Positions 9,619 to 56,907 of a stretch of 64,000 bases of DNA are shown here, one piece after another (position 1 is the stretch's first letter; each line of letters starts with the position of its first letter). The stretch is taken from assembly GCF_001510645.1 (NCBI RefSeq), contig NZ_LMVB01000001.1, positions 2,676,981-2,740,980 on the forward strand, written 5' to 3'. Under the pieces are notes generated by a model that worked only from the letters and a program-made list of their open reading frames with translations, made no database searches and was not told the DNA's origin. Origin of the DNA: Paenibacillus sp. FJAT-29882. Lineage in GTDB: Bacteria > Bacillota > Bacilli > Bacillales > DSM-1321. Both the position numbers and the translations under genes were made by a program.

Positions 9619-10803
9619 ATGATTGCTAAGTTACATACCCTTTTGGAAAATTCTTATGAAGAAATGGTCGCCATTCGTCGCTATTTACACCAACACCCTG
9701 AGCTTTCTTTTCAGGAAACGAAAACGGCTGCCTATATTACTGATTTTTATCAACAGCTTGGGATTGAAGTAAAATCAGGTATCGGTGGCAATGGCGTTGT
9801 GGCAAGAATATCAGGTGCTAAACCTGGTAAAACCGTCGCACTACGAGCTGATTTCGATGCATTACCGATACAAGATGAAAAGGATGTTCCTTATAAGTCT
9901 ACAGTGCCTGGTGTCATGCATGCATGTGGTCATGATGGACATACAGCGACTCTGTTGATTCTAGCAAAAGCGCTCCATACGATGAAAGATGAACTAGAAG
10001 GTGATTATGTACTTATTCATCAACATGCCGAGGAATACGCCCCAGGCGGTGCTAAGCCAATGATTGAAGATGGCTGTTTAGATGGAGTAGATGTCATTTT
10101 CGGTACTCATCTTTGGGCAACTGTACCAACTGGAACGATCCAACATCGAGTCGGTCCTTTCATGGCGGCAGCTGACCGCTTCGAAATAACTCTTTTTGGC
10201 CAAGGTGGACATGGTGCACAACCACATAAAACGAAAGATGCCATTGTGATTGGCGCTCAACTCGTATCAAACCTACAGCAAATTGTCAGTAGACGTGTTA
10301 GTCCACTCGATTCTGCTGTCGTTACTATTGCATCCTTTGCGGCTGAAAACGCCTTTAATGTGATAGCCGACAAAGCAACAATTGGCGGCACTGTACGGAC
10401 ATTTAGTGAAGATGTACGTGCCTTTATTGCAGAAGAGATTGAACGCATTGTGAAAGGAACCTGTCTTTCTGGAAATTGTACGTATGAATATATGTATGAT
10501 TATGGGTACCCTGCTGTTGTCAACCATGAAACAGAAACACATTTACTCGTAGAAGCAGCTGCTACAGTAGCAGAAGTAGATACGATTGAAGAAACGCTAC
10601 CTGATATGACAGGAGAAGACTTTTCGTATTATTTACAAAATGTGAAGGGAACATTCTTTTTCACTGGCGCTAAGCCGTATCCTGATTTTCCCTATGGTCA
10701 TCACCATCCGAAATTTGATATTGACGAAAAAGCAATGCTCATTGCAGCTAAAACATTGGGCAGTGCGGCGATTTCCTATCACCAAAGTAGTGAAAACAAA
10801 TAA
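9619..10803 (+). CDS. yhaA: M20-family amidohydrolase (YhaA-like N-acyl-amino acid hydrolase)
   Basis: A 394-residue cytosolic metallopeptidase-family enzyme. It has the M20D pattern: RADFDALPIQ around residue 77, the metal-binding HACGHDGHTA around 101, HQHAEE around 135 with the catalytic Glu, GGHGAQPH in the lid domain around 194 and TGEDFSYY near the C-terminus. Relatives remove acyl groups from amino acids or act on aminoacylated substrates. It resembles B. subtilis YhaA. The start follows ACGGAGG. It stands alone, with an extended -10 promoter in front. Confidence 0.88.
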   Translation: MIAKLHTLLENSYEEMVAIRRYLHQHPELSFQETKTAAYITDFYQQLGIEVKSGIGGNGVVARISGAKPGKTVALRADFDALPIQDEKDVPYKSTVPGVMHACGHDGHTATLLILAKALHTMKDELEGDYVLIHQHAEEYAPGGAKPMIEDGCLDGVDVIFGTHLWATVPTGTIQHRVGPFMAAADRFEITLFGQGGHGAQPHKTKDAIVIGAQLVSNLQQIVSRRVSPLDSAVVTIASFAAENAFNVIADKATIGGTVRTFSEDVRAFIAEEIERIVKGTCLSGNCTYEYMYDYGYPAVVNHETETHLLVEAAATVAEVDTIEETLPDMTGEDFSYYLQNVKGTFFFTGAKPYPDFPYGHHHPKFDIDEKAMLIAAKTLGSAAISYHQSSENK

Positions 10804-10913
10804 AGCCACTCTACTACCATTATTAGATAAGTTAATAAGAGTTTCCCGAATCACTCTAAAATTTCATATAAGCAAGTATACACTTTCGTAACTTAACTAC
10901 TGGAGGAGTCTAG

Positions 10914-11729
10914 ATGATTCAAGAAATAGATAGTCTTGTGATTCAACTGAACGAAATTATCTGGAACCGAGATAATAAGAAGATATTGAATGGGGTTTCC
11001 TGGAAGGTTAACAAGGGAGAACACTGGGCAATTTTAGGGTTAAATGGATCGGGGAAAACTTCTCTCCTAAAAATCATAACGGGCTATCAATGGCCAACTA
11101 AAGGGAATGTTTCCGTTTTGGGAAACATATTCGGAAAGACAAACATCCCTGAGCTTCGAAAAAAAATTGGATGGGTAAGCACTTCATTAGATGAAAAATT
11201 TCACTCCCGTCCAAGTGATACAGCTATAGAAGTCGTATTAAGTGGAAAAAATGCTTCGGTTGGATTGTATGAAGAAATAACGGAAATTGATGTTGAAAAA
11301 GCTAGTGAGCTTCTTCAACAGTTCAGAATTAGTGATTTAACTGACCAAGCTTTCTCGTCCCTCTCTCAAGGAGAAAAAAGGAAAGTAATGATCGCTCGAG
11401 CGCTCATGTCTTCACCAAGCTTACTTATCCTGGATGAACCATGCAATGGTCTAGATCTCTATTCAAAAGAAGAGCTTCTTTCAACGATCGAGAAGTTGAC
11501 CCAATCAGCTGAAGGTCCTACTCTATTATATGTAACCCATCATATCGAAGAACTCGTTCCATCTATTTCGCACGCTTTATTATTAAATAAAGGAAATGTT
11601 ATTGCGAATGGACAAAAAAAATCAGTCTTGACCGAGAAGTTATTAGAAAAGACTTTTGATCTCCCCATTTCATTGGGATGGGAAGATGAACGTCCTTGGA
11701 TTCGAATTAAATCAATGAATAAAGGATAA
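10914..11729 (+). CDS. ABC transporter ATP-binding protein (YlmA-like, orphan)
   Basis: A 271-residue ABC ATPase with Walker A GLNGSGKTS (about residue 43), Q-loop region, signature LSQGEKRKV (about 150), Walker B LLILDEP and the switch His in YVTHH. The sequence resembles YlmA and the ModF-like group, which often lack a cognate permease. No permease lies beside it here. TGGAGGAG precedes the ATG. The substrate is unknown, and it may not be a transporter component at all. Confidence 0.8.
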   Translation: MIQEIDSLVIQLNEIIWNRDNKKILNGVSWKVNKGEHWAILGLNGSGKTSLLKIITGYQWPTKGNVSVLGNIFGKTNIPELRKKIGWVSTSLDEKFHSRPSDTAIEVVLSGKNASVGLYEEITEIDVEKASELLQQFRISDLTDQAFSSLSQGEKRKVMIARALMSSPSLLILDEPCNGLDLYSKEELLSTIEKLTQSAEGPTLLYVTHHIEELVPSISHALLLNKGNVIANGQKKSVLTEKLLEKTFDLPISLGWEDERPWIRIKSMNKG

Positions 11730-11740
11730 ATTCCTTAATA

Positions 11741-11790
11741 GAGTGAAACTTCACTCAGCGGGTGGATTACTCCCCGTTAATGCGGGATAA
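11741..11790 (+). repeat. Repeat family B copy (short)
   Basis: It contains GAGTGAAACTTCACTCAGCG and CCCCGTTAATGCGGGATAAA, the two ends of family B, directly after the ABC ATPase gene. Confidence 0.65.
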
Positions 11791-11816
11791 ATTAAATGAT
11801 ATTTTAAAATATATAA

Positions 11817-11857
11817 GAGCCGCTTGTATCATCTGCTGCGATTGACACAAGCGGCTC
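11817..11857. terminator. Bidirectional terminator between the ABC ATPase gene and ecsC
   Basis: A perfect stem GAGCCGCTTGT/ACAAGCGGCTC sits between convergent genes, followed by T-rich sequence on each side. Confidence 0.8.
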
Positions 11858-11862
11858 ATTTC

Positions 11863-12585
11863 TTATGCTTTTTCAGAAAGAATTCGCAGGCGATACCCAT
11901 TCATCGCCGTTTCCCCTAGTTGATCCAACAATTGATGATTGGCGTAGGCCCCTACCGCTGCACCAATTCCCGGAACGAGCTGAAACATTTTGACGAAATC
12001 AATTTGATCTCTGTACTCTTGCTGAAACTGTTGCCAGTCTAATTCCTTAGCATGTTCAATATGATCCCAATTCTCAATAATATCCAGTGTTTCTCGTCGC
12101 TTGTCTTCACTAGAAAAAGCAAGCTGAAAAATATGAAGGATGAATAGTCGTTCTTCGTATTTCTTCGCGTCGAAGCCATACAATCCAGCAATTTCAAAGA
12201 GAAGTTTCATTTTAATCGTCAATAACAACGGAAAATCAGCAAGACCTAGTAAAATACCCCCTGCACCCGTACCTGCCCCTTCAATTACCGCCGTTTTTCG
12301 ATAGGTTACAATCGTTTCCTTCACCCATTGATCCTTTTGCTGCAAACTTAAGCAAGAAACATCTCTTTCCTTCGAAACAAATTTGGACCCTTTTAAAACA
12401 GCTTCAACAAGATTCCGGATGCTCTCGGTAATGACGCCATGTACCTTTTTAGGAATGAAGGTATTCATTTTATTTTGTGCGGTTTTGGAAATCCGCTCAA
12501 AGGTACCTGATTTCCGCAAAATTTTCTTTTTCCATGCCATAAGCTCACGATTGGTGATTTGTTCATACGTGTCGATTGCAATCAT
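11863..12585 (-). CDS. ecsC: EcsC family protein
   Basis: A 240-residue protein matching B. subtilis EcsC. A glycine-rich amphipathic segment lies in the middle (GAGTGAGGILLGLADFPLLL) and a second one near the C-terminus (VPGIGAAVGAYAN). Its role is unknown; it is normally the third gene of ecsABC. Here a repeat (family D) of about 170 bp separates it from ecsB, so it may depend on its own promoter or on read-through. The ribosome site is weak at this ATG (GGAG directly abuts it), so the exact start is uncertain. Confidence 0.88.
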   Translation of the reverse strand: MIAIDTYEQITNRELMAWKKKILRKSGTFERISKTAQNKMNTFIPKKVHGVITESIRNLVEAVLKGSKFVSKERDVSCLSLQQKDQWVKETIVTYRKTAVIEGAGTGAGGILLGLADFPLLLTIKMKLLFEIAGLYGFDAKKYEERLFILHIFQLAFSSEDKRRETLDIIENWDHIEHAKELDWQQFQQEYRDQIDFVKMFQLVPGIGAAVGAYANHQLLDQLGETAMNGYRLRILSEKA

Positions 12586-12596
12586 CTCCAGTTTTG

Positions 12597-12764
12597 TGTG
12601 AAGGATATGGGGACGGGGCTTCGCGACTTACTAATAAGCCCGCTACTTAGCAGGTATACTCATTTTATCAAGAAAGCATCCAAAACTCCGGCTCTGCATC
12701 GCCACCATTGTGATTAGGCCAGTGTCGCGTGCTACATGTGGTAAATGGTGGCGTTTAACGCCAT
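12597..12764 (-). repeat. Repeat family D copy 1
   Basis: An intergenic repeat of about 170 bp between ecsB and ecsC. It shares GGGGACGGGGCTTCGCGAC, the segment CGGCTCTGCA.CGCCACCATT, and the end GTGGCGTTTAACGCCAT with the opposite-strand copy at 61948-62144. The left end is degraded. No coding sequence is visible. Confidence 0.75.
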
Positions 12765-12778
12765 ATTCGTTTTGTATG

Positions 12779-13984
12779 TTAGAAACTCTTCAATTTTTTT
12801 GCAGAATAGCCTCTAAATAGTAGAATAAATACAATTGCTGCTAAGAATGACGCCCCAGCACCCCACCAATTTCCCGCAATAAGTAATACGAGGGCAAACA
12901 CGATTGCTTCAAAAAGTAAAAAGCAAGATACAAGTTGTATGACTGCTGTTTCTCGTAACTTAGCAGGCAGTGGATATAATGATACCCATATTTTCAACTC
13001 ATGCTGTTTCCAAACAGGAAGAATTTGAATTCCTGTCATATAAAGAAACAAAATCGTGACGAGTATACTCGCAACCATTGAAGGAAAGGTAAGCAATACA
13101 AACGATCCGATAACAGTCAGCCTTACTAGTAAGCCTACATAGTCATTGGCCCGGAGCATCGTCCGAGCATACAAGAACGTGTACGTTGATTTTTGACGAT
13201 AAGGTATTAAAGTGAGTAACCAGTCTAACCATTTTCGTCTGGCCACTTTTCCTCTCAGCTTAGGTACATCGGTGAATAGATTCGCAATCCGGTAAAACGA
13301 CATCATCCGCTTGCCCTCTAGTTCGATTAATCGCTCCCACTTAATGCCCTTCTTTGTCGTTGTATGCCTATAATAAAAGAATAAACCGCCCAAAAGTACG
13401 AGTAGTATTATACCTAAATGACTCGCATCGGCAAAAACTAAATAGAGTAAAACAATATTCACTAATAATCGGATAAAGAAGTCAATTTTGATCGCAGACG
13501 GCTCCGTATACTTCAGCATATACCAATGAATATGTATGTTGAAAAATTTAACAGCCAACAACAGGATGATAACGTAAAGACTGGAAACTTTACTAGGATC
13601 TGCTACCTTTGTATACATCGGCAGGAAGACAATGTACACAATTATCAACATAAAGCCCTGCATCATCGCACTCAACCAAATAGAATTTTTAAAATACATT
13701 CTAAGCTTCGTTTCTAGCGGCAATAGGAACACCACATCCGCTTCTTTCAAAAAAGTCATGATCGGGCTTCTTGTTAGGAAAAAACCAAGAACGACAGCCA
13801 TGATCCAAGCTGCTGGAAAATCAGCGGTCAAGGTCTTCACCCATTCGCTGTAATAAAAGCCGAGTCCGCCTAAACCAATCACCATAACAAACATTAAATG
13901 CCCGTTAAAAATATATCGTAAATACTTTTGCATTTCTTGGCTGTAGCCGAGGAATCGCTCTTTCCATAACCCTCGGCTATTCAT
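12779..13984 (-). CDS. ecsB: Ecs ABC transporter permease EcsB
   Basis: A 401-residue polytopic membrane protein with hydrophobic segments clustered at about residues 28-70, 100-200 and 290-395, matching EcsB. It pairs with EcsA as an ABC-type exporter. In B. subtilis, Ecs affects secretion, competence and intramembrane protease RasP-dependent processes; the transported substrate has been linked to peptides. The start codon overlaps the ecsA stop by 8 bp, so the two are translationally coupled. Confidence 0.92.
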   Translation of the reverse strand: MNSRGLWKERFLGYSQEMQKYLRYIFNGHLMFVMVIGLGGLGFYYSEWVKTLTADFPAAWIMAVVLGFFLTRSPIMTFLKEADVVFLLPLETKLRMYFKNSIWLSAMMQGFMLIIVYIVFLPMYTKVADPSKVSSLYVIILLLAVKFFNIHIHWYMLKYTEPSAIKIDFFIRLLVNIVLLYLVFADASHLGIILLVLLGGLFFYYRHTTTKKGIKWERLIELEGKRMMSFYRIANLFTDVPKLRGKVARRKWLDWLLTLIPYRQKSTYTFLYARTMLRANDYVGLLVRLTVIGSFVLLTFPSMVASILVTILFLYMTGIQILPVWKQHELKIWVSLYPLPAKLRETAVIQLVSCFLLFEAIVFALVLLIAGNWWGAGASFLAAIVFILLFRGYSAKKLKSF

Positions 13985-14720
13985 GTTTAGTTTCTTCCTT
14001 TGTCAGTTGAATATATAAGTCATCAAGTGTTGCCCCTGGCATATCAAATTGACTTCGAAGCTGTTCCAAATCACCTTTTGCACGAATTTCTCCATTGTGA
14101 AGAATGACGAAAGAATCACAATATCTTTCTGCTGTCGCAAGGATATGAGTAGACATTAAGATCCCCGCACCGCTTTCTTTCATATTTTGCATAAGGTCAA
14201 GCAACGACTGGATCCCGAGCGGGTCTAGTCCCACAAACGGTTCATCCACAATATACAAAGATGGTTGAACAAGAAACGCACACATAATCATCACCTTTTG
14301 CCGCATCCCTTTTGAAAAATGGGCTGGAAACCAAGATAAACGTTTCTCCATATGGAATTCCTTTAATAATTTCCCCATCCTATCTTTAAATACGGATTCC
14401 TCTAGACCGTATGCCATCGCAGTAAGCCTTAAATGCTCCTCTAGTGTAAGCTCATCATAAAGAATAGGTGTTTCAGGAATATAGGTATACTGCTTTCGAT
14501 ATTCATCTGGATTCTCAGCAAATGTTTTTCCTTTTATTGTAATTGAACCACTTTTCTCTTCCATCAATCCAATGATATGCTTAATCGTTGTACTCTTCCC
14601 CGCACCATTCAAACCTATAAGTCCAACAAGCTCATTCGGCCGAATGTCAAAGCTGATTCCTTTTAATACAGGAATTCTTGTATAACCTCCGACTAAGTTG
14701 TTTATTTCTAATAAGGACAT
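13977..14720 (-). CDS. ecsA: Ecs ABC transporter ATP-binding protein EcsA
   Basis: A 247-residue ABC ATPase. Walker A is GLNGAGKST near residue 38, the signature region is FSKGMRQKV, Walker B is LYIVDEP and the switch His is in MSTHILA. It begins MSLLEINNLVGGYTR, as in B. subtilis EcsA. I placed the start at 14720, using GGAAGGG; an in-frame ATG at 14756 would add 12 residues that the family lacks. It is the first gene of the ecs unit and is divergent from the tandem RNA locus and hit. Confidence 0.93.
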   Translation of the reverse strand: MSLLEINNLVGGYTRIPVLKGISFDIRPNELVGLIGLNGAGKSTTIKHIIGLMEEKSGSITIKGKTFAENPDEYRKQYTYIPETPILYDELTLEEHLRLTAMAYGLEESVFKDRMGKLLKEFHMEKRLSWFPAHFSKGMRQKVMIMCAFLVQPSLYIVDEPFVGLDPLGIQSLLDLMQNMKESGAGILMSTHILATAERYCDSFVILHNGEIRAKGDLEQLRSQFDMPGATLDDLYIQLTKEETKHE

Positions 14721-14870
14721 ATCAACGATCCCTTCCATAATGTACGTTAGTTCCATTTTAACAAATTCCGTTTTGTTTATCGAGTTAAGAAAGCTTTAGT
14801 TTTTTAACGAATTTTACTTTCTAACCTACAGCGCTTTTTTTAATGGTGAAAAAATATTTGGAATCCCCGT

Positions 14871-14899
14871 GTATATAATACTTAAATCGTGGCTATCAT
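14871..14899 (+). promoter_or_regulatory. Sigma-F/sigma-G-like promoter of RNA copy 1
   Basis: GTATA, a 15-bp spacer and GGCTATCAT. Spacing and -35 fit the forespore sigma-F consensus; the -10 matches at most positions. The same arrangement with the same spacer length precedes copy 2 at 15529-15557. Confidence 0.5.
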
Positions 14900-14905
14900 A
14901 AGTAG

Positions 14906-15270
14906 TGAAGAAGGGGTTCTTCATTAGACTTTTGATTTTATCATCTTGTCAAATGAGGTGTCAGTTAAAGACAACTAACTGCAATATACCAGAAACTTCA
15001 ATGAACCAAACGTTTATGCAAGGAGATGGTTGCTTTGCAAACATTAGACGAAAGAAACATTCATGCACGATCCAATACGCTTTATTGTTGCAAAACTTTA
15101 GAGTTATAGGAGATGGTTGCTTTGAATGCAAAAACTTTTTTTAAACGCTAAAACTTACTTTTAGTAAATGAGGTGTTTATCGGAGACAGTCTATGTAAAT
15201 AAACGTATTTGGAGTGTGACCCCTTTTTCATAGGCAGGGTGCAGCAATCAGCTGCATCCTGTTTCTTTTT
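14906..15270 (+). ncRNA. Candidate small RNA / leader RNA, tandem copy 1
   Basis: A transcription unit of about 365 bp with its own promoter-like element and intrinsic terminator. Sequence is strongly conserved with copy 2 (15564-15928), and the length is the same. Two motifs each occur twice per copy: AGGAGATGGTTGCTTTG (15021 and 15110) and AAATGAGGTGT (14956 and 15168), all resembling ribosome binding sites. Behind the first AGGAG motif a TTG opens a 24-codon frame (15035-15109), which has the same length in copy 2. A longer frame from GTG 14905 is not kept between copies because of a 2-bp indel. It may be a regulatory RNA, an mRNA for micro-peptides, or both. I know no named family that fits. 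Confidence 0.5.
15235..15270 (+). terminator. Intrinsic terminator of RNA copy 1
   Basis: CAGGGTGCAGC pairs with GCTGCATCCTG (one G-U pair), loop AATCA, then TTTCTTTTT. The hairpin is identical to that at 15893-15928. Confidence 0.85.
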
Positions 15271-15310
15271 AACATAAGAATACAAATATCTCCACCACTA
15301 CTTTCCTTCT

Positions 15311-15460
15311 AGAGGTTGTTCAAAAAGTCAAAAGCTTGAGAATTGCCTCAAAGCTCTTTCCCTTCAGCCCTCACGTATTACTGTATACGTGAAAGGTTCT
15401 CGAGATGCGCTCCTCGAACTTCTCGGCTCTTTTTATCCTCCTTTTTGAGTACGCACTTCT
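15311..15460 (+). repeat. Repeat family A copy (MITE-like)
   Basis: It begins AGAGGTTGTTCAAAAAGTC and ends CTCCTTTTTGAGTACGCACTT, so the ends form an imperfect inverted repeat (TTCAAAAAG near one end, CTTTTTGAG near the other). It sits between the two RNA copies. An inverted relative lies at 56730-56907. Confidence 0.7.
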
Positions 15461-15528
15461 ATATACATTTATTTCAATTTAGAAAATTTCGCTGTTTTTA
15501 TAGACACATGTTTTTTTAAATTGATCAT

Positions 15529-15557
15529 GTATATAAAACGTAAATCATGGCTATCAT
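15529..15557 (+). promoter_or_regulatory. Sigma-F/sigma-G-like promoter of RNA copy 2
   Basis: GTATA, a 15-bp spacer and GGCTATCAT, exactly as at 14871-14899, although the spacer sequence has drifted. Confidence 0.5.
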
Positions 15558-15563
15558 AAGTAG

Positions 15564-15928
15564 TGAAGAAGGGGTTCTTCATTAAACTTATGATTTCATC
15601 ATTTTGTCAAATGAGGTGTCAGTTAAAGACAACTAACTGCAATAAACCAGAAACTTCAATGAACCAAACGTTTTTATGCAAGGAGATGGTTGCTTTGCAC
15701 ACATTAGACGAAGTAAACATTCATGCACGATCCACTATACTTTACTGTTATAATGCTTTAGAGATATAGGAGATGGTTGCTTTGTATGCAAAAACTTTTT
15801 TAAACGCTAAACTTACTTTTAGTAAATGAGGTGTTTGTTAAAGAAAGTCTATGTAATGAAACGTATTGAAGTATGGCCCCTTTTTCAAGTCGCAGGGTGC
15901 AGCAATCAGCTGCATCCTGTTTCTTTTT
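15564..15928 (+). ncRNA. Candidate small RNA / leader RNA, tandem copy 2
   Basis: Second copy of the unit at 14906-15270, in the same orientation and of the same length. The repeated AGGAGATGGTTGCTTTG (15681 and 15770) and AAATGAGGTGT motifs are retained. The 24-codon TTG frame (15695-15769) keeps its length but shows mostly amino-acid-changing differences (about eight replacements, one silent), which argues weakly against protein selection. The terminator ends about 70 bp before hit, so the RNA is upstream of hit but should normally stop before it. Confidence 0.5.
15893..15928 (+). terminator. Intrinsic terminator of RNA copy 2
   Basis: Same 11-bp stem CAGGGTGCAGC/GCTGCATCCTG and AATCA loop as copy 1, followed by TTTCTTTTTCT. 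Confidence 0.85.
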
Positions 15929-15997
15929 CTTTCCGACTTTCATGTAGCTATGATAGGATAAGATTACCTAAACATTAACCAGGAAAGGATGTCAAAG

Positions 15998-16423
15998 ATG
16001 AGCGATTGTATTTTTTGTAAAATTATTACTGGAGAGATCCCGAGTACAAAAGTATTTGAAAATGAACATGTACTTGCCTTTCTTGACATTAGTCAAGTAA
16101 CGAAAGGTCATACATTGGTCATCCCAAAAGTACATAAAGAAAATGTTTATGAATTAACACCTGACATGGCAAAAAGTATTTTCGAAGTAGTGCCAGAAAT
16201 TGCTCGTGCTCTCAAAAAGGCGTTCAATCCAATTGGCTTGAATACTATTAACAATAACGGTGAAGCTGCCGGACAGTCCGTTTTCCATTACCATCTTCAT
16301 TTAATTCCACGCTACGGTGAAGGTGATGGATTCGGAGCCGTTTGGAAAACGCATACGAGTGAATACACACCTGAAGACTTGCAAGCTATGGCACAATCCA
16401 TTTCAAAAAACATGGAAAATTAA
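15998..16423 (+). CDS. hit: HIT-family nucleotide-binding protein
   Basis: A 141-residue cytosolic HIT protein. The histidine triad HYHLHLIPR is near residue 100, the N-terminal CIFCKI holds a likely zinc-binding Cys pair, and the central block HTLVIPKVHKENVYE is typical. HIT enzymes hydrolyse AMP-linked phosphoramidates or dinucleotides. I chose the ATG at 15998 because AAAGGA is well spaced from it; an ATG three codons earlier abuts the ribosome site. It lies between ecsA (divergent) and serC, as in B. subtilis. Confidence 0.93.
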   Translation: MSDCIFCKIITGEIPSTKVFENEHVLAFLDISQVTKGHTLVIPKVHKENVYELTPDMAKSIFEVVPEIARALKKAFNPIGLNTINNNGEAAGQSVFHYHLHLIPRYGEGDGFGAVWKTHTSEYTPEDLQAMAQSISKNMEN

Positions 16424-16427
16424 TCAT

Positions 16428-16468
16428 AAAAAATTCACCTTGGAGCCTAACTCAATGGTGAATTTTTT
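16428..16468 (+). terminator. Terminator of hit
   Basis: AAAAAATTCACC and GGTGAATTTTTT form a strong stem directly after the hit stop codon. Confidence 0.8.
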
Positions 16469-16528
16469 ATGATTTAAAGGAAATTTCAATCAAATCATGA
16501 TTATTTCACTAAACATTCTTTTTTTTCT

Positions 16529-16557
16529 TTCAACTTGTAAACATTTTCTGATAGGAT
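16529..16557 (+). promoter_or_regulatory. Putative sigma-A promoter of serC
   Basis: TTCAAC, 17-bp spacer, TAGGAT, about 43 bp upstream of the serC start. Confidence 0.4.
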
Positions 16558-16599
16558 AGAAACAATCAAGTCCTTTCACACATACAAGGAGGAATAAAT

Positions 16600-17706
16600 A
16601 TGAAAAGAGCACGTAATTTTAATGCAGGTCCTGCTGCTTTACCCGAAGAAGTTTTAAAAAGAGCGCAATCTGAATGGTTAAATATCGACAACACAGGGAT
16701 GTCGGTCATGGAATTAAGCCATCGCAGTGATACGTTTGAAACGATCCATAATCACGCCATTCAAACGCTTAAAGAACTAATGGATATTCCAGAAAATTAT
16801 GATGTTCTCTTCCTGCAAGGCGGTGCTAGCCTTCAATTCTCGATGATTCCAATGAACTTATTAAAAGCCGATAGTCAAGCGGACTACGTTCTAACTGGAA
16901 GTTGGTCGGAAAAGGCTTTACAAGAAGCGAAGAAAATCGGAACAACTAGAGTTGTAGCTTCTACAAAAGAGTCAAATTATACATTCATCCCGGAACTTTC
17001 TGATATCGTCTACAATCAAGATGCAGCTTATTTACATATCACTTCAAACAATACCATTTACGGAACGCAATGGAATGAATTTCCGGATGCAAAAAATGTT
17101 CCTTTAGTTGCGGATATGTCCAGTGATATTTTGAGTAAAAAAATAGATGTCAGCAAATTCGGTTTAATCTATGCCGGCGCGCAAAAAAACCTTGGTCCAT
17201 CTGGTATTACCGTTGTCATCATTCGTAAAGATCTTATTTCTGATTCTTTGGCTGAAATTCCAACTATGTTGAATTACCATACACATCAAGCTAGCAATTC
17301 ACTATATAATACGCCACCAACTTTAGCTATTTACCTCCTCTCACTTGTACTTGACTGGGCAAATGATTTAGGTGGTATTACCAAGATTGAAGAAATGAAC
17401 GCGAAGAAAGCAGAATTACTTTATCATGCCATTGATTCAAGCGATGGATTTTATAAAGGACATGCCGAGCTTAACAGCCGTTCTTATATGAATGTTACCT
17501 TTACCCTTCCGAACAAAGAAATTGAGCAGGAATTTTTGCAAAAAGCGAAAGAAACTGGGTTTATCGGCTTGAACGGCCACAGATCTGTCGGTGGCTGCCG
17601 TGCATCCATTTATAATGCCGTTCCACTTGAACATTGCCAGGAGCTTGCTGATTTTATGAATACATTTAAAGATACTTACCAGCATCAAGAAAAAAACTCC
17701 TTCTAA
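16600..17706 (+). CDS. serC: Phosphoserine aminotransferase
   Basis: A 368-residue PLP enzyme that converts 3-phosphohydroxypyruvate and glutamate to phosphoserine and 2-oxoglutarate in serine synthesis. It starts KRARNFNAGPAALPEEVL, typical of SerC. The PLP phosphate region LQGGASLQF is present, and the PLP lysine lies in IYAGAQKNLGPSG around residue 196. The C-terminal GHRSVGGCRASIYNA binds substrate. Length is normal and AAGGAGG precedes the ATG. It lies in the same place between hit and trpP as in B. subtilis. Confidence 0.95.
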   Translation: MKRARNFNAGPAALPEEVLKRAQSEWLNIDNTGMSVMELSHRSDTFETIHNHAIQTLKELMDIPENYDVLFLQGGASLQFSMIPMNLLKADSQADYVLTGSWSEKALQEAKKIGTTRVVASTKESNYTFIPELSDIVYNQDAAYLHITSNNTIYGTQWNEFPDAKNVPLVADMSSDILSKKIDVSKFGLIYAGAQKNLGPSGITVVIIRKDLISDSLAEIPTMLNYHTHQASNSLYNTPPTLAIYLLSLVLDWANDLGGITKIEEMNAKKAELLYHAIDSSDGFYKGHAELNSRSYMNVTFTLPNKEIEQEFLQKAKETGFIGLNGHRSVGGCRASIYNAVPLEHCQELADFMNTFKDTYQHQEKNSF

Positions 17707-17778
17707 AAAAAGGATAGTCATGATATACTATTTTAAACCTCTCGCAATAGGCAATAGTGCACTGTTGGGGAGAAACTT

Positions 17779-17806
17779 TAGACGAGATGAGAATAGGAGA
17801 GATGAG
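17779..17806 (+). promoter_or_regulatory. TRAP-type (G/U)AG triplet array over the trpP ribosome binding site
   Basis: Six triplets (TAG, GAG, GAG, TAG, GAG, GAG) are separated by exactly two bases each and end two bases before the trpP ATG, enclosing the ribosome binding site. Three more triplets (TAG 17748, TAG 17755, GAG 17770) lie upstream at looser spacing. This is the known layout of tryptophan-activated TRAP (MtrB) binding sites, which block translation of trpP in B. subtilis. Confidence 0.85.
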
Positions 17807-17808
17807 AA

Positions 17809-18330
17809 ATGAATACGAAAGTACTAGTGTCCTTATCCTTATTAATGGGGTTAGGTGCTGTTCTGCATCTAGTTGTCCCTGGAATTGCTTTTGGAGTTAA
17901 GCCCGATATGATGCTAACTATGATGTTTTTAGCCATTATCTTATTTCCAGAAAAGAAAAATGTCTTTTTAGTAGCAGTAACAGCCGGAGTCATTTCCGGA
18001 CTTACATCAACCTTCCCAGGTGGAGGTTTCATCCCGAACATTATCGATAAATTTATCACTGCCTTTCTATTTTATTTCATGTTTTTGGCTATTCGGAAAT
18101 TCACTAAATCATTTATCAGCATTGGATTTCTAACGGCGATTGGAACCCTAATTTCCGGTACGGTATTCCTTGCTGCAGCTCATTACATTGTGGGTCTACC
18201 AGAAGCATTCCTTTTAATGTTTGCTGGAGCTGTACTTCCGGCAATCGTATTGAACGTAATCGCAGTTGCTATCATTTATCCAATTGTGACTGGGCTTGTC
18301 AAGCGATCAAACATTCCTGCAAATATATAA
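17809..18330 (+). CDS. trpP: Tryptophan transporter TrpP
   Basis: A 173-residue membrane protein with about five hydrophobic segments covering nearly the whole length, as in the TrpP (YhaG) family. The conserved-looking loop TSTFPGGGFIPNIIDK lies about residues 66-81. It imports tryptophan. The translation start is embedded in a TRAP-type triplet array, independently supporting the identification: excess tryptophan would switch off synthesis of its own importer. It follows serC by about 100 bp and ends in a strong terminator. Confidence 0.93.
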   Translation: MNTKVLVSLSLLMGLGAVLHLVVPGIAFGVKPDMMLTMMFLAIILFPEKKNVFLVAVTAGVISGLTSTFPGGGFIPNIIDKFITAFLFYFMFLAIRKFTKSFISIGFLTAIGTLISGTVFLAAAHYIVGLPEAFLLMFAGAVLPAIVLNVIAVAIIYPIVTGLVKRSNIPANI

Positions 18331-18343
18331 TCTTAAACTTTTC

Positions 18344-18374
18344 AAAACACCGGATGTTTTTCCGGTGTTTTTTT
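18344..18374 (+). terminator. Terminator of trpP
   Basis: AAACACCGGA/TCCGGTGTTT stem followed by a T run, just after the stop codon. Confidence 0.85.
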
Positions 18375-18385
18375 AAAACCATCTA

Positions 18386-18562
18386 TTATATGACAAGCTG
18401 GATTAGAATGCCAATTAGAAGGAAAGCGATACTTGCTACACCTAAGATCAATACTCTTTGTTTTATAGTTTTTTTGGGCGGAAACATGCCTGGTCTTTGT
18501 AAAATAGCCAAATAAAAGAATGCCGCCATTAAAAACACGAGCGATAAAATAAAGAAAAACAA
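18386..18562 (-). CDS. Small two-span membrane protein (TTG start)
   Basis: A 58-residue protein starting at TTG 18562, with AAGGAGGAG seven bases upstream. It has two clear hydrophobic spans (residues about 2-21 and 37-58) joined by a basic loop LQRPGMFPPKKTIKQR. An overlapping ATG frame on the same strand (18342-18569) gives an unstructured, Cys/His-rich protein and is less likely. I do not recognise the family. It lies convergent to trpP, with the trpP terminator hairpin just past its stop. Confidence 0.6.
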   Translation of the reverse strand: MFFFILSLVFLMAAFFYLAILQRPGMFPPKKTIKQRVLILGVASIAFLLIGILIQLVI

Positions 18563-18837
18563 GACGCATCTCCTCCTTTTCGAAATCTTTTTGTCATGTA
18601 TATGTCAAGCCTCTACTTTTTATGAATTCCCAATCTCTAAACTATTTTTATATATTGAAAAAAATAAAGATGTTTAAAAAAACATTTTTGTGATATAAAG
18701 AATATATAAATTAACTCTTTCACTAATAAGAAAATTATGATATTTTAATAAAAAGATTACCAACTATTATTTTCTTACCTAGCAGGTTTTTTTAACTATA
18801 AGGCGAAATCAATATAGAAGAAAAATGAGGTGATCAT

Positions 18838-19203
18838 ATGAAGGCAAAATCAGTCATTCTTGGAGTAATAACAGGAACTATTGTTGGTGCAGCAGCAGCT
18901 CTTCTCACCGCACCAAGTTCTGGAACAGAGCTTCGCAGCCGTGTGAAAGCAAATACAACTGAAATTTCTAACTCCATTAAAGAGTTGAAGATCCAGTTGA
19001 TGAATTTAAAAGAAGATGCCATACACGCTTCGAAAATAAGCAAAGAGACCATCAAAGCTTTTATAGAAGATGTGAAAATATTGATTGAAGGCTGGAAAAA
19101 AGATATTGAACCAAATTCAGAAGAATTATCAAAAAACATAAAAGAAATTGAGGCGACGATTCAAGAACTCGAAATGATTGCTTCTCCTAAAATTGAATCA
19201 TGA
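18838..19203 (+). CDS. yhaH: YtxH-domain protein YhaH
   Basis: A 121-residue protein with an N-terminal glycine/alanine-rich membrane anchor (VILGVITGTIVGAAAALLTAP, residues 5-25), then SGTELR and a long helical, coiled-coil-like tail. This is the YtxH/YhaH pattern, associated with general stress. GAGGTG precedes the ATG. It lies between trpP and hpr, as in B. subtilis. The flanking intergenic regions contain two similar stretches (AGGTTTTTTTAAC at about 18784 and 19278); their role is unclear. Confidence 0.85.
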   Translation: MKAKSVILGVITGTIVGAAAALLTAPSSGTELRSRVKANTTEISNSIKELKIQLMNLKEDAIHASKISKETIKAFIEDVKILIEGWKKDIEPNSEELSKNIKEIEATIQELEMIASPKIES

Positions 19204-19449
19204 ATAACTAAAAAACAACTGCCGGCTTGCCTAATAACTTTTTTAGACAGAGTGTACATATTTCTTTAGTAAAAAACAGGTTTTTTTAACATTAAGCATT
19301 GCCGGCACTTTCACCTTTTCGTAGCAGCATAAGCTTATACAAAATTTTTATATGAAAAATTCTAAAAATTTCGCAAATTTAGCTTTATTAATCTTTACTT
19401 TATTGTCATAATAAAACTAGAGAATTCTGATAAGTAGGTGAGTGTATTC

Positions 19450-20028
19450 ATGCAGGAAAAAAATTATACTATGAAAGATGCTATGATCTTCAGCCAAAGA
19501 ATTGCTCAATTAAGTAAAGCACTTTGGAAGGCTGCGGAAAAGGATTGGCAACAATGGATTAAGCCCTTTGATTTAAACATTAACGAACATCACATCTTGT
19601 GGATTGCTTATCATTTAAACGGTGCCTCCATTTCAGATGTAGCTAAATTCGGAGTTATGCATGTTTCAACTGCATTTAACTTCTCCAAAAAGTTAGAGGA
19701 ACGCGGCTTATTAAGTTTTTCAAAGAAAGAAAATGACAAACGTAATACGTATATTCAAATTACCTTAGAGGGTGAAAGCATTTTATTAGATTTAATGGAA
19801 CAGTATGACCCCGCTAGCAATTCTGTTCTTTCAGGAACCCTTCCGATGCGAGAGCTTTATGGGAAATTCCCTGATATGATGGAGATGATGGCGATTATCC
19901 GAAATATTTATGGCGAGGATTTCATGGGGATATTTGAACGTTCATTTGATAGTATCAATCAAGAATTTACCGAAGAAGAAGGTAAAATTGCAAAAAAAAA
20001 GTCAGAGAAAGAAACTGAAGCTGTTTAA
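19450..20028 (+). CDS. hpr: HTH-type transition-state regulator Hpr/ScoC
   Basis: A 192-residue MarR-family repressor, nearly identical in its core to B. subtilis ScoC ([59 protein letters not shown]). In B. subtilis it represses protease, motility and sporulation genes and peptide transporters in the transition phase. The start at 19450 uses TAGGTGA; a GTG 12 bases earlier overlaps the ribosome site. It overlaps the convergent yhaI stop by 4 bp. Confidence 0.95.
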
Positions 20029-20360
20029 TTCTTTGCAATTTTCTCCATATCCTTCATGAAAGAAACATATAATCCTTGCTTTAAACAAGCTTCAATAAGT
20101 TCTTTTACTGTTACTTTTAGAGTCAACTCCATTGTAAGGCGGTTAAAAAGCGGTTGAAAATGTATATACCCTTCCGCTTTTTCTATTTCATATTGCTTGC
20201 TCAATGTATCACATAGTCTCAAAATCTCATGAGCTTCTGTTTCCGAAAGATTTTTTTCAAAAAAGATCACATCCAATTCCGCTTTCGGGTTCCGAATAAC
20301 GTTTAATAAGAGTGTTTGATGAAATTTCAGTCTATTAATTTCCCTCTCTAAGTCTCGCAT
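20025..20360 (-). CDS. yhaI: DUF1878 protein YhaI
   Basis: A 111-residue, largely helical cytosolic protein resembling YhaI (DUF1878), with RICD-like [12 protein letters not shown] in the middle and [15 protein letters not shown] near the C-terminus. Function is unknown. It converges on hpr with a 4-bp overlap of stop codons, an arrangement that lets the transcripts be antisense at their ends. Confidence 0.8.
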
Positions 20361-20575
20361 TTCCTGCCTCCACCAATCTTGTTCAATTACCGCTTTTCTC
20401 CATTATACATGATTTCTTTTACTTCTCCACGATTGAAAACGCATACGGATTATTTCATGTAATATTCTATTGATTTTTTTGCTTAATCATCGTAAAGTAT
20501 GGGAAGGATTTTATAAGAAAAGCATATAGGCTTTATCTTATTATCTATACTATCCCGCTTGTGGAGGCGAATTTT

Positions 20576-21118
20576 TTGAATAGCTGGAAGTCGATCAACT
20601 TGGATAGACAATTTGGGAATCAATTTATCTTATTTCTATCCATGATGACCACGTTATTTTCTTTTATTGTTATTTATTTAAGTATGAGCGCGTTTTTTCC
20701 TAATGTCTCCATGTCTGATGACTATGGCTGGGTGTTACTTTCTTCAGTGCTTCTCTTATATCCGATTCATAAACTAATGCACTACTGTCCATGTATTTTG
20801 GAATATCCAAAAATTAAACCGGCGTTGCATGTAAAATGGAGTGTTCTTCCACTTATTTCATTCAAGGTAGATGACCCCATTCCAAAACAACTGTACAGAT
20901 TAACCTTACTCTTTCCTTTTCTTGTATTAACGAGCGTTTTTATCGGTGGCGCATACACTTTCCCACATTACGCGCATTATTTTACCATACTGCTTTCCAT
21001 TCACACCGGATTATGCGTTTCTGATTTTATTGCGCTCAAATGTATGGCCGGATCACCTGAACAAAGCTTCGTAGAAGAAACAGAGCAAGGTTATGATATT
21101 CTTATTTTTAAAGATTAA
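20576..21118 (+). CDS. yhaJ: DUF3267 membrane protein YhaJ
   Basis: A 180-residue protein with about four membrane segments. Related DUF3267 proteins carry a zincin-like HExxH; here the corresponding place reads HKLMHY, so the catalytic Glu is replaced by Lys and protease activity is doubtful. I used TTG 20576 as start (GTGGAGG eight bases before it). It lies between yhaI and prsA, matching the B. subtilis order. Confidence 0.75.
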   Translation: MNSWKSINLDRQFGNQFILFLSMMTTLFSFIVIYLSMSAFFPNVSMSDDYGWVLLSSVLLLYPIHKLMHYCPCILEYPKIKPALHVKWSVLPLISFKVDDPIPKQLYRLTLLFPFLVLTSVFIGGAYTFPHYAHYFTILLSIHTGLCVSDFIALKCMAGSPEQSFVEETEQGYDILIFKD

Positions 21119-21231
21119 TTAGGTAATTTAAAAATGATGAATACAAGGAGTTACAAAGTTTTAAGTATCTTTTTATGAAATTATTTGGTATCGTAATGAT
21201 ACATACTTGTTCTAGAGGGAGGGATTCAGGA

Positions 21232-21414
21232 GTGATAATAATCGTGTTTATCATCTTCTCGGCCTTAATTCTATATAATATTAACAGAATGACAAACTCA
21301 TTATGTATCCAAAAAGAAATTCCTGAAGACCGCCAGACGAAAGTATTTCGGACTATTAATATCTTAATTACGATTTTACTATTGTCCTCGTATGTTGAAA
21401 TATCCTTTACATAA
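21232..21414 (+). CDS. Small two-span membrane protein
   Basis: A 60-residue protein beginning at GTG 21232 after GAGGGAGG, with hydrophobic segments at residues 2-17 and 42-57 and a charged middle (IQKEIPEDRQTK). It resembles the small YhzF-type proteins of Bacillus, but I am not certain. A strong terminator lies about 120 bp downstream. Confidence 0.55.
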   Translation: MIIIVFIIFSALILYNINRMTNSLCIQKEIPEDRQTKVFRTINILITILLLSSYVEISFT

Positions 21415-21536
21415 GTAATGTATAGGCGGCGGTCAGAATAACCGTTATCGATCCTTGATACAGCAAAAAAGGCCACCCTCGAGTGCCTTCTGACCCGTAG
21501 GTAGCAAGTGTAAGGTCAGACATCAAAACGAAGCGG

Positions 21537-21570
21537 AAAAAGGTGAACCCATTAACGGTTCACCTTTTTT
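21537..21570. terminator. Bidirectional terminator
   Basis: AAAAAGGTGAACC/GGTTCACCTTTTT stem with A and T runs on opposite sides, between the plus-strand small membrane protein gene and the minus-strand YjcZ gene. Confidence 0.8.
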
Positions 21571-21581
21571 AGTATCCAATT

Positions 21582-21665
21582 TTATAACCATGAAGCTCCG
21601 ATGATAATCAAAAGGATAAAAAGTACAACAATCAAAGCGAAACCTCCGCCGACCCCTCCAGACAT
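21582..21665 (-). CDS. YjcZ-family sporulation micro-protein, copy 1
   Basis: A 27-residue protein: a glycine-rich N-terminus (MSGGVGGGFALIV) and a single hydrophobic helix ending IIIGASW-L. This is the recognisable YjcZ/YtrI-like micro-protein pattern found in spore formers, often annotated as sporulation protein YjcZ. GAGGAGG sits before the ATG. It is far below normal gene-calling length. A second copy follows upstream on the same strand. Confidence 0.85.
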   Translation of the reverse strand: MSGGVGGGFALIVVLFILLIIIGASWL

Positions 21666-21819
21666 TGTGTATCCTCCTCTCAATGGTACATACATTCAAT
21701 CCCGTTTTCAGAAAACTGGTTGCTCTTTTTTTACAACCACCCCTTTAACGGCTACAATATTCTATTCAGCTTAGCTTTAAGAAGCGTGGGCTTTTTGTGT
21801 TTTTAATTAGAAGTGGTGT

Positions 21820-21906
21820 TTACCTGCAAAAAGAAGCACCAACGATGATCAATAAAATAAACAAAACCACCAACAAAGCAAACCCTCCGCCAAATCCATT
21901 GCCCAT
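21820..21906 (-). CDS. YjcZ-family sporulation micro-protein, copy 2
   Basis: A 28-residue protein with GNGFGGGFALLVVLFILLIIV followed by GASFCR, clearly paralogous to the one at 21582-21665 (central LFILLII block the same). AAAGGAGG precedes the ATG. Both are small membrane-inserted peptides likely made late in sporulation; their role is unknown. Confidence 0.85.
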   Translation of the reverse strand: MGNGFGGGFALLVVLFILLIIVGASFCR

Positions 21907-22096
21907 ATATATTACCTCCTTTATATTGATCGACAGCCTTTTGTTTAAGTACGTGCTGCCTAATCTGCATAGAACCGATATGAGTGAACGATCCTTACAT
22001 CATATGTATTGGTCATGTAGACGGATGGGCGTTTGCCTACTTTCTACAAATTAAGATGCAAAATTCGCACTTTAATTTTCGAAAAACTTCCAAATA

Positions 22097-56729: not shown

Positions 56730-56907
56730 CAAGTGCGTGTTCAAAAAGGAAGATAAAAGAGCAAAGAAGTTCTGCGAGCGATAGTCTGCGCGTATACAAT
56801 AATACGTGAGGACTGGACTTGCTTGCACAGGACGTGCGCGATTTTAACAGAAGGTCATTCATGAGCATTCACAAGCTTCTTTACCGGACTTTTTGAACAA
56901 CCTCTAC
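56730..56907 (-). repeat. Repeat family A copy (inverted)
   Basis: It starts AAGTGCGTGTTCAAAAAGGA and ends GACTTTTTGAACAACCTCTA, the inverse of 15311-15460, with shared interior segments (GTATACAATAATACGTGAGG). It ends 39 bp before the BKACE start, so it lies in the promoter region of the carnitine genes. Confidence 0.7.

Follow-up and report, generated by a model that had tools for sequence, protein, structure and literature searches.

Putative tandem members of the S357/Bvs196 forespore RNA family upstream of hit, with a modular array of two conserved motifs

The findings presented here suggest that two tandem units of about 365 nt, located between ecsA and hit in a 64,000-nt window of the Paenibacillus sp. 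FJAT-29882 genome, are paralogues of the S357/Bvs196 RNA. The RNA family is known and the units of the window are new tandem members of it. Its modular design, in which a motif A (AAATGAGGTGTYTGTYAAAGAC, with variants) and a motif B (AAGGRGATGRTNNNN[T/A]TGAAC) are repeated along the RNA, is newly described, and we did not find it described in the open-access literature. This A/B array, the start-codon signature of B and its complementarity to the small RNA RoxS are additions to the initial annotation of this DNA.

Layout and duplication of the units

Self-comparison of the window matched 14870-15270 with 15528-15928 in blocks of 82-95% identity at an offset of 657-660, and in a DNA search unit 2 was 90% identical to unit 1 over 401 nt of the query. 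The two units share the promoter GTATA-15-GGCTATCAT, which we take to be of the sigma-F/G type, and a common 3′ end, CAGGGTGCAGCAATCAGCTGCATCCTG followed by a T-run. The direct copies of equal length, the closely matching bodies and the common promoter and terminator of the initial annotation were thus all recovered. Both units folded more stably than their shuffled sequences (z of -6.7 for unit 1 and -5.8 for unit 2), none of 100 shuffles being as stable. The features of the region are the following:

13977-14756, minus strand: ecsA, ABC transporter ATPase, divergent neighbour (open reading frame; name from the locus in PMC9147052)
14871-14899, plus strand: unit 1 forespore-type promoter (GTATA at 14871-14875, GGCTATCAT at 14891-14899), with related forms at own-genus loci
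14906-15270, plus strand: unit 1 RNA, about 365 nt, start deduced from the promoter
14907-14916, plus strand: unit 1 end stem P1, 5′ strand (folding; covariation across families)
14951-14972, plus strand: unit 1 A module (AAATGAGGTGTCAGTTAAAGAC), with a 6-codon GTG frame starting at 14958
15020-15037, plus strand: unit 1 B1 module, SD AAGGAG, TTG at 15035-15037, frame of 24 codons
15107-15124, plus strand: unit 1 B2 module, TTG at 15122-15124, frame of 9 codons
15166-15187, plus strand: unit 1 second A module, with a 9-codon GTG frame starting at 15173
15220-15229, plus strand: unit 1 end stem P1, 3′ strand (CCCCTTTTTC; folding)
15235-15270, plus strand: unit 1 intrinsic terminator (sequence, folding)
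15529-15557, plus strand: unit 2 forespore-type promoter (GTATA at 15529-15533, 15 bp, GGCTATCAT at 15549-15557)
15564-15928, plus strand: unit 2 RNA, about 365 nt, start deduced in the same way
15609-15630, plus strand: unit 2 A module, with a 6-codon GTG frame starting at 15616
15680-15697, plus strand: unit 2 B1 module, TTG at 15695-15697, frame of 24 codons
15767-15784, plus strand: unit 2 B2 module, TTG at 15782-15784, frame of 15 codons that ends inside the next A module
15824-15845, plus strand: unit 2 second A module, with a 12-codon GTG frame starting at 15831
15893-15928, plus strand: unit 2 intrinsic terminator (sequence)
15989-16423, plus strand: hit/hinT, HIT family, downstream neighbour (open reading frame)

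In both units the 24-codon B1 frame ends on a stop codon that overlaps the B2 SD (15107-15109 and 15767-15769), and in unit 2 the stop of the B2 frame (15827-15829) falls inside the following A module, arrangements that resemble coupled translation. Directly 3′ of hit, a 24-nt inverted repeat (16422-16474) is a likely terminator, and sub-threshold matches to the Rfam family mir-186 were found there.

A DNA search of the strain's own genome returned the two units of the window and no other copy. The same kind of search matched the units in all 36 own-genus genomes and in 2 of 25 others, so conservation extended beyond the strain. Tandem whole units were present in three genomes (this one, G009 and G029), and duplication was also visible at other scales. 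Within the own genus, A modules were spaced 75-76 nt apart in 20 of 33 units, one unit having four in a row. Direct repeats of 378-451 nt with A motifs occurred in three Gottfriedia contigs, one of them with three copies (L192), and in three contigs labelled Bacillus sp.; altogether, a self-repeat of at least 120 nt containing an A motif was present at 16 of 183 loci. In some own-genus genomes an extra copy of the RNA, with a similar promoter, lay away from hit (L393-L396).

As the initial annotation had noted, the two units are separated by a repeat (15315 to about 15430). Its first 15 nt (15315-15329) recur exactly at 56887-56901 on the minus strand, and two further occurrences, at 2379 and 52186, carry two mismatches. 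The units of G029 are 30 nt apart, which leaves no room for such a repeat, so the repeat probably postdates the duplication.

A modular array within a known forespore RNA family

We scanned 103 hit-upstream loci from 35 families, a subset of the 297 out of 299 genomes with a hit match, three genomes being included twice. At least two modules were found at 68 loci, in 24 families, while the other 35 loci, among them all loci of 11 families, had fewer than two. The patterns used for scanning impose a core on the motifs, and the module sets were de-replicated without placement on a tree. In checks without this core, 52 of 55 spacers lying after RGGRG and before [TA]TGA started with ATGGT, ATGAT or ATGTT, and of the 142 places that matched the 3′ half of A, 141 were preceded by ATG[AG]GGTG. 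The exact 22-mer of A was present in 119 stretches of the genome contigs, with 89 matches in the 80 loci examined. By pattern, 86 of these matches had hit downstream (72) and/or ecsA upstream (78); the remaining three lay 1-431 nt from the end of the locus, where neither hit nor ecsA was found. Throughout the window the B pattern matched the four B modules only and the extended A pattern three of the four A modules only, while the 9-mer core of A occurred at three further places. By sequence, A is the more general part of the array, because the B. subtilis-group loci that we read keep A without B. Some contigs labelled Chryseobacterium and Paenibacillus contained the order ecsA-RNA-hit and one labelled Pseudomonas contained ecsA and the RNA (L189, L166 and L200); these contigs are perhaps mislabelled.

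The ends of the RNA form a predicted stem, P1, that covaries across families. Both ends could be located in 47 of 106 loci, and with one locus per family the own strands paired better than strands crossed between families in 18 of 21 cases (-20.1 versus -14.2 kcal/mol; p = 5e-5), in agreement with the covarying stem that the initial annotation had proposed to look for among homologues upstream of hit. The cores of A and B, on the other hand, are linear, since their flanks pair with them no better than shuffled flanks do. B was rejected as a hairpin, as covariation was absent, and so was A, for which fixed-column covariation was weak and the flanks again did no better than shuffles. Neither core was predicted to be sequestered by its flanks more than in shuffles. 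The predicted unpaired value of A was 0.25 versus 0.37 for the RNA (71 sites), and TCATT was enriched upstream of it (0.23 versus 0.05).

The initial annotation knew of no described RNA of this form at the locus, and this part of its interpretation did not hold. PMC9147052 maps Bvs196 of B. velezensis, a forespore-specific RNA of 294 nt, to the hinT-ecsA intergenic region, reports that its expression depends on sigma-F and mainly on sigma-G and that it gives an independent band of about 300 nt, and states its homology to S357 of B. subtilis, which is the same as ncr1670 (PMC4410918). An Hfq enrichment of 2.77-fold was reported for ncr1670 (PMC3574147). The discussion of PMC9147052 writes S547 as the homologue, a name that PMC8216469 gives to CsfG. 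The remaining claims of the interpretation, namely that there are two units of transcription, that their promoter is of the forespore type and that they are conserved, were borne out at the level of sequence. In the Rfam search that the initial annotation had suggested, the units had no match in Rfam 15 at E <= 1 (cmscan), and seven homologous loci gave none at E <= 0.5.

Support for assigning the units to S357/Bvs196 comes from their locus and promoter type, and from motif A, the end stem and the terminator. The units lie between divergent ecsA and hit, as S357/Bvs196 does, and their promoter has a sequence of the sigma-F/G type. In the ecsA-hit gap of one further locus (L143) there are three A motifs together with a forespore-type promoter and a terminator, and an end stem was recognised by eye; the P1 comparison described above included family f43. 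The genome of locus L143 is presumably B. subtilis-like, its Hit being 99% identical to that of B. subtilis. From the position of S357/Bvs196 and these like features we took the units of the window to be its tandem paralogues. They differ from S357/ncr1670 and Bvs196 in being duplicated in tandem, with two A and two B modules per unit; A was present in the B. subtilis-group loci read, and no B module was found there. The repeated A motifs, the most conserved parts of the RNA, go unmentioned in the consulted sections of PMC9147052.

Start-site likeness of B and candidate partners of the array

Judged from its sequence, B looks like a complete translation start, with an SD, 9 nt and TTG or ATG. 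Among 173 unique strict matches, the triplet 13 nt from the GG of B was TTG in 154 and ATG in 10; by eye, the other nine comprised four hit coding sequences, four RNA ends and one degenerate B. Nine ATG cases that were inspected came from f44, f30, own-genus relatives and a Neobacillus. One explanation is that the RNA is a forespore mRNA of mini-ORFs, in which B and perhaps A (through its GTG) are translated, mostly for 6-18 codons, and the act of translation or the peptides matter. Besides the start triplet in 164 of the 173 matches, this is favoured by stops placed 4-10 codons past the motif: they occurred in the B frame in 65 of 102 cases, the other two frames giving 22 and 27, and in the GTG frame of A in 155 of 241 versus 72 of 236 and 80 of 237, although the Fisher values (3e-11 and 3e-16) are optimistic, the modules being related. 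By family label, in-frame stops were more frequent in 17 of 24 families for B (4 ties) and in 21 of 28 for A (3 ties). However, TAA (rank 1 in both motifs) and TAG (ranks 4 and 8) were enriched among the in-frame stops and TGA (ranks 31 and 55) was not, and G is nearly absent directly upstream of A, which leaves its GTG without an SD. Purifying selection on the peptides was not seen in the own genus, where pN/pS was 1.8 for B1 (9 of 20 unique) and 1.9 for B2 (11 of 18), and substitutions at codon positions 1, 2 and 3 numbered 134, 143 and 153 in A and 62, 91 and 108 in B. Conserved peptides were ruled out on these two grounds, and we regard the mini-ORF explanation as unlikely. It seems that the start and the shortness of the frames are kept and not the product.

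The explanation that we favour, tentatively, is capture of forespore RoxS by an RNA that serves as an array of start-site mimics. This explanation draws on the match between B and region 3 of RoxS, on the ability of this region to bind an SD and block or exclude the 30S subunit (PMC4409812), and on the precedent of RosA. Region 3, CUCCCAUCCCC, was present by pattern in 25 of 29 RoxS sequences, and the commonest form of B, AAGGGGATGG, is fully complementary to region 3 plus the UU that usually follows it. For 143 unique loose B matches, which include a few non-B modules, the mean pairing energy was -16.7 kcal/mol with region 3 and -12.6 with the anti-SD, RoxS being the better partner in 121. 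In contrast, the SDs of hit (n = 103) gave -8.2 with region 3 and -11.2 with the anti-SD, with RoxS better in 15. None of 1000 composition-preserving permutations of region 3 did as well on 60 of the 143 B sequences, the best of them coming within 0.1 kcal/mol.

According to this sponge model, the RNA would be a modular array of start-site mimics enclosed by the stem of its 5′ and 3′ ends, and its B modules (SD, 9 nt, TTG/ATG) would present the sequence paired by the C-rich region 3. Transcribed from sigma-F/G promoters, it would bind forespore RoxS through several B sites and so free the RoxS targets from repression. The A modules would make up another kind of SD-like site, for which the best candidate partner tried is the anti-SD of 16S rRNA, and tandem units and extra modules would raise the number of sites. 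That such an array, with throw-away mini-ORFs, captures RoxS through B and a second anti-SD partner (possibly 30S) through A, thereby resetting inherited vegetative translation control in the spore compartment, we consider rather doubtful.

Several results count against RoxS capture. The match depends on the class of B: the GGGGATGG class (82 of 143 unique B) reaches -19.3 kcal/mol with region 3, the GGAGATGG class, which is that of the window (32 of 143), has one mismatch to RoxS and ties with the anti-SD at -12.4, and the GGAGATGA class (11 of 143) prefers the anti-SD. Energies of -12.1 to -13.5 kcal/mol were obtained for the four B modules of the window with the two RoxS copies of the genome. 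Covariation with RoxS was absent: nine of ten genomes with GGAGATG in B and with RoxS keep CCCATCCCC, and in the tenth (G045) RoxS had changed without restoring the pairing. Region 3 was missing by pattern from four of the 29 RoxS sequences (G014, G045, G088 and the second copy of G021), and the copy of G014, of the own genus, was the sole one found there. RoxS was detected in 26 of 29 genomes searched; the other three belong to f46, in which a conserved B-like site, AAGGAGATGRTTCTCTTGGA with TTG, lies upstream of hit without A modules (L070-L079), and the lack of a RoxS match in these three genomes also weighs against a sponge. So do the B. subtilis-group loci with A and without B, and the published targets of Bvs196, which are mRNAs (PMC9147052). 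Long duplexes between array and RoxS were no better than shuffles in 11 genomes, and the predicted unpaired value of B did not exceed that of the whole RNA (0.32 versus 0.38, 34 sites), so the prediction did not show the accessible single-stranded sites expected of a RosA-like sponge. Two RoxS matches occurred in this genome, in G029 and in G021 (both below the cut-off in G021). Those of this genome are in tandem (G000:C1:2600099-2600218 and 2600462-2600584; L315 and L319), and G029 likewise combines tandem RoxS with tandem array units; the two genomes are close kin and perhaps reflect one event.

Among known sponges, the array resembles RosA (S345), the RoxS/FsrA sponge of B. subtilis, in being a stand-alone RNA and in carrying several G-rich sites whose complementarity to C-rich regions of RoxS is, in the window, interrupted by a mismatch. 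RosA differs in its sigma-A promoter under CcpA, its length of about 229 nt and its use of mainly region 1 (PMC8216469), whereas the array matches region 3 and has a forespore-type promoter. RsaI of S. aureus is also G-rich, and an interaction with the RoxS homologue RsaE has been reported for it, but it is CcpA-regulated and said to be conserved in Staphylococcus and not in Bacilli (PMC8216469). We found no open-access paper that treats this RNA as a forespore sponge.

Other partners were considered. FsrA was rejected: of 12 genomes, 3 had a match above the Rfam cut-off, and its pairing with B (-12.1 kcal/mol) was weaker than that of RoxS region 3. A separate partner for GGAGATGG was sought with an 11-mer in three genomes, where none of nine contexts outside arrays was convincing. 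For A no partner was found. A small RNA carrying its reverse complement was discarded, as ACACCTCATT had 9 + 10 sites in the own genome versus 8 + 5 for the control and 3 + 6 versus 1 + 3 in the B. subtilis-like genome, and the 22 sites inspected outside arrays had no small RNA in common. The anti-SD of 16S rRNA paired best with A among seven segments tried (-11.7 kcal/mol, 247 unique A), and 22 of 1000 permutations were as good on 60 of the 247, a value of 0.022 before correction for seven partners. This would fit a 30S decoy, with A and B as SD mimics that titrate initiating ribosomes in the forespore. Yet A keeps a mismatch to the anti-SD (the T in AAATGAGG) and its conserved 3′ half pairs with no segment tried, and we judge a decoy quite improbable. 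Slightly less probable still is an mRNA-pairing sRNA as published for Bvs196: microscale thermophoresis and deletion phenotypes speak for it (PMC9147052), but the published pairing stretches (nt 74-131 and 109-124) were estimated to fall in the A1-A2 interval and not in the conserved motifs, and the same source calls the Bvs196 loops variable.

In favour of a sponge for CsfG, this sRNA is C-rich and, as the array would be, under sigma-F/G control (PMC8216469), and it was found in all 32 genomes searched. CsfG itself differs from the array in being C-rich and in its other locus, on the reverse strand of RF00516, a family with no match at 10000-22000 of the window and one elsewhere in the own genome. 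Whole-length pairing between array and CsfG was near that of shuffles (z of -1.6 to 1.5, 16 genomes), and CsfG segments bound B worse than RoxS region 3 did and A worse than the anti-SD did, which makes this sponge very improbable. Hardly any weight is left for reading the units as a hit leader or attenuator, or as a mobile repeat: they adjoin hit and are duplicated, but have their own promoter and a terminator before hit, Bvs196 gives its own independent band (PMC9147052), synteny was kept in the 86 of 89 exact A matches, and no transposase-like ORF was noticed on inspecting the ORF list.

Implications of a possible start-site-mimic array

Bvs196/S357 has been treated as an mRNA-pairing sRNA (PMC9147052). 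If the capture of RoxS by the array is true, the RNA would be a sporulation-specific sponge, and it would raise the question of why start codons and short frames, unlike the peptides, are kept. The array offers testable motifs, a named candidate partner in RoxS and a possible reason for its recurrent duplication.
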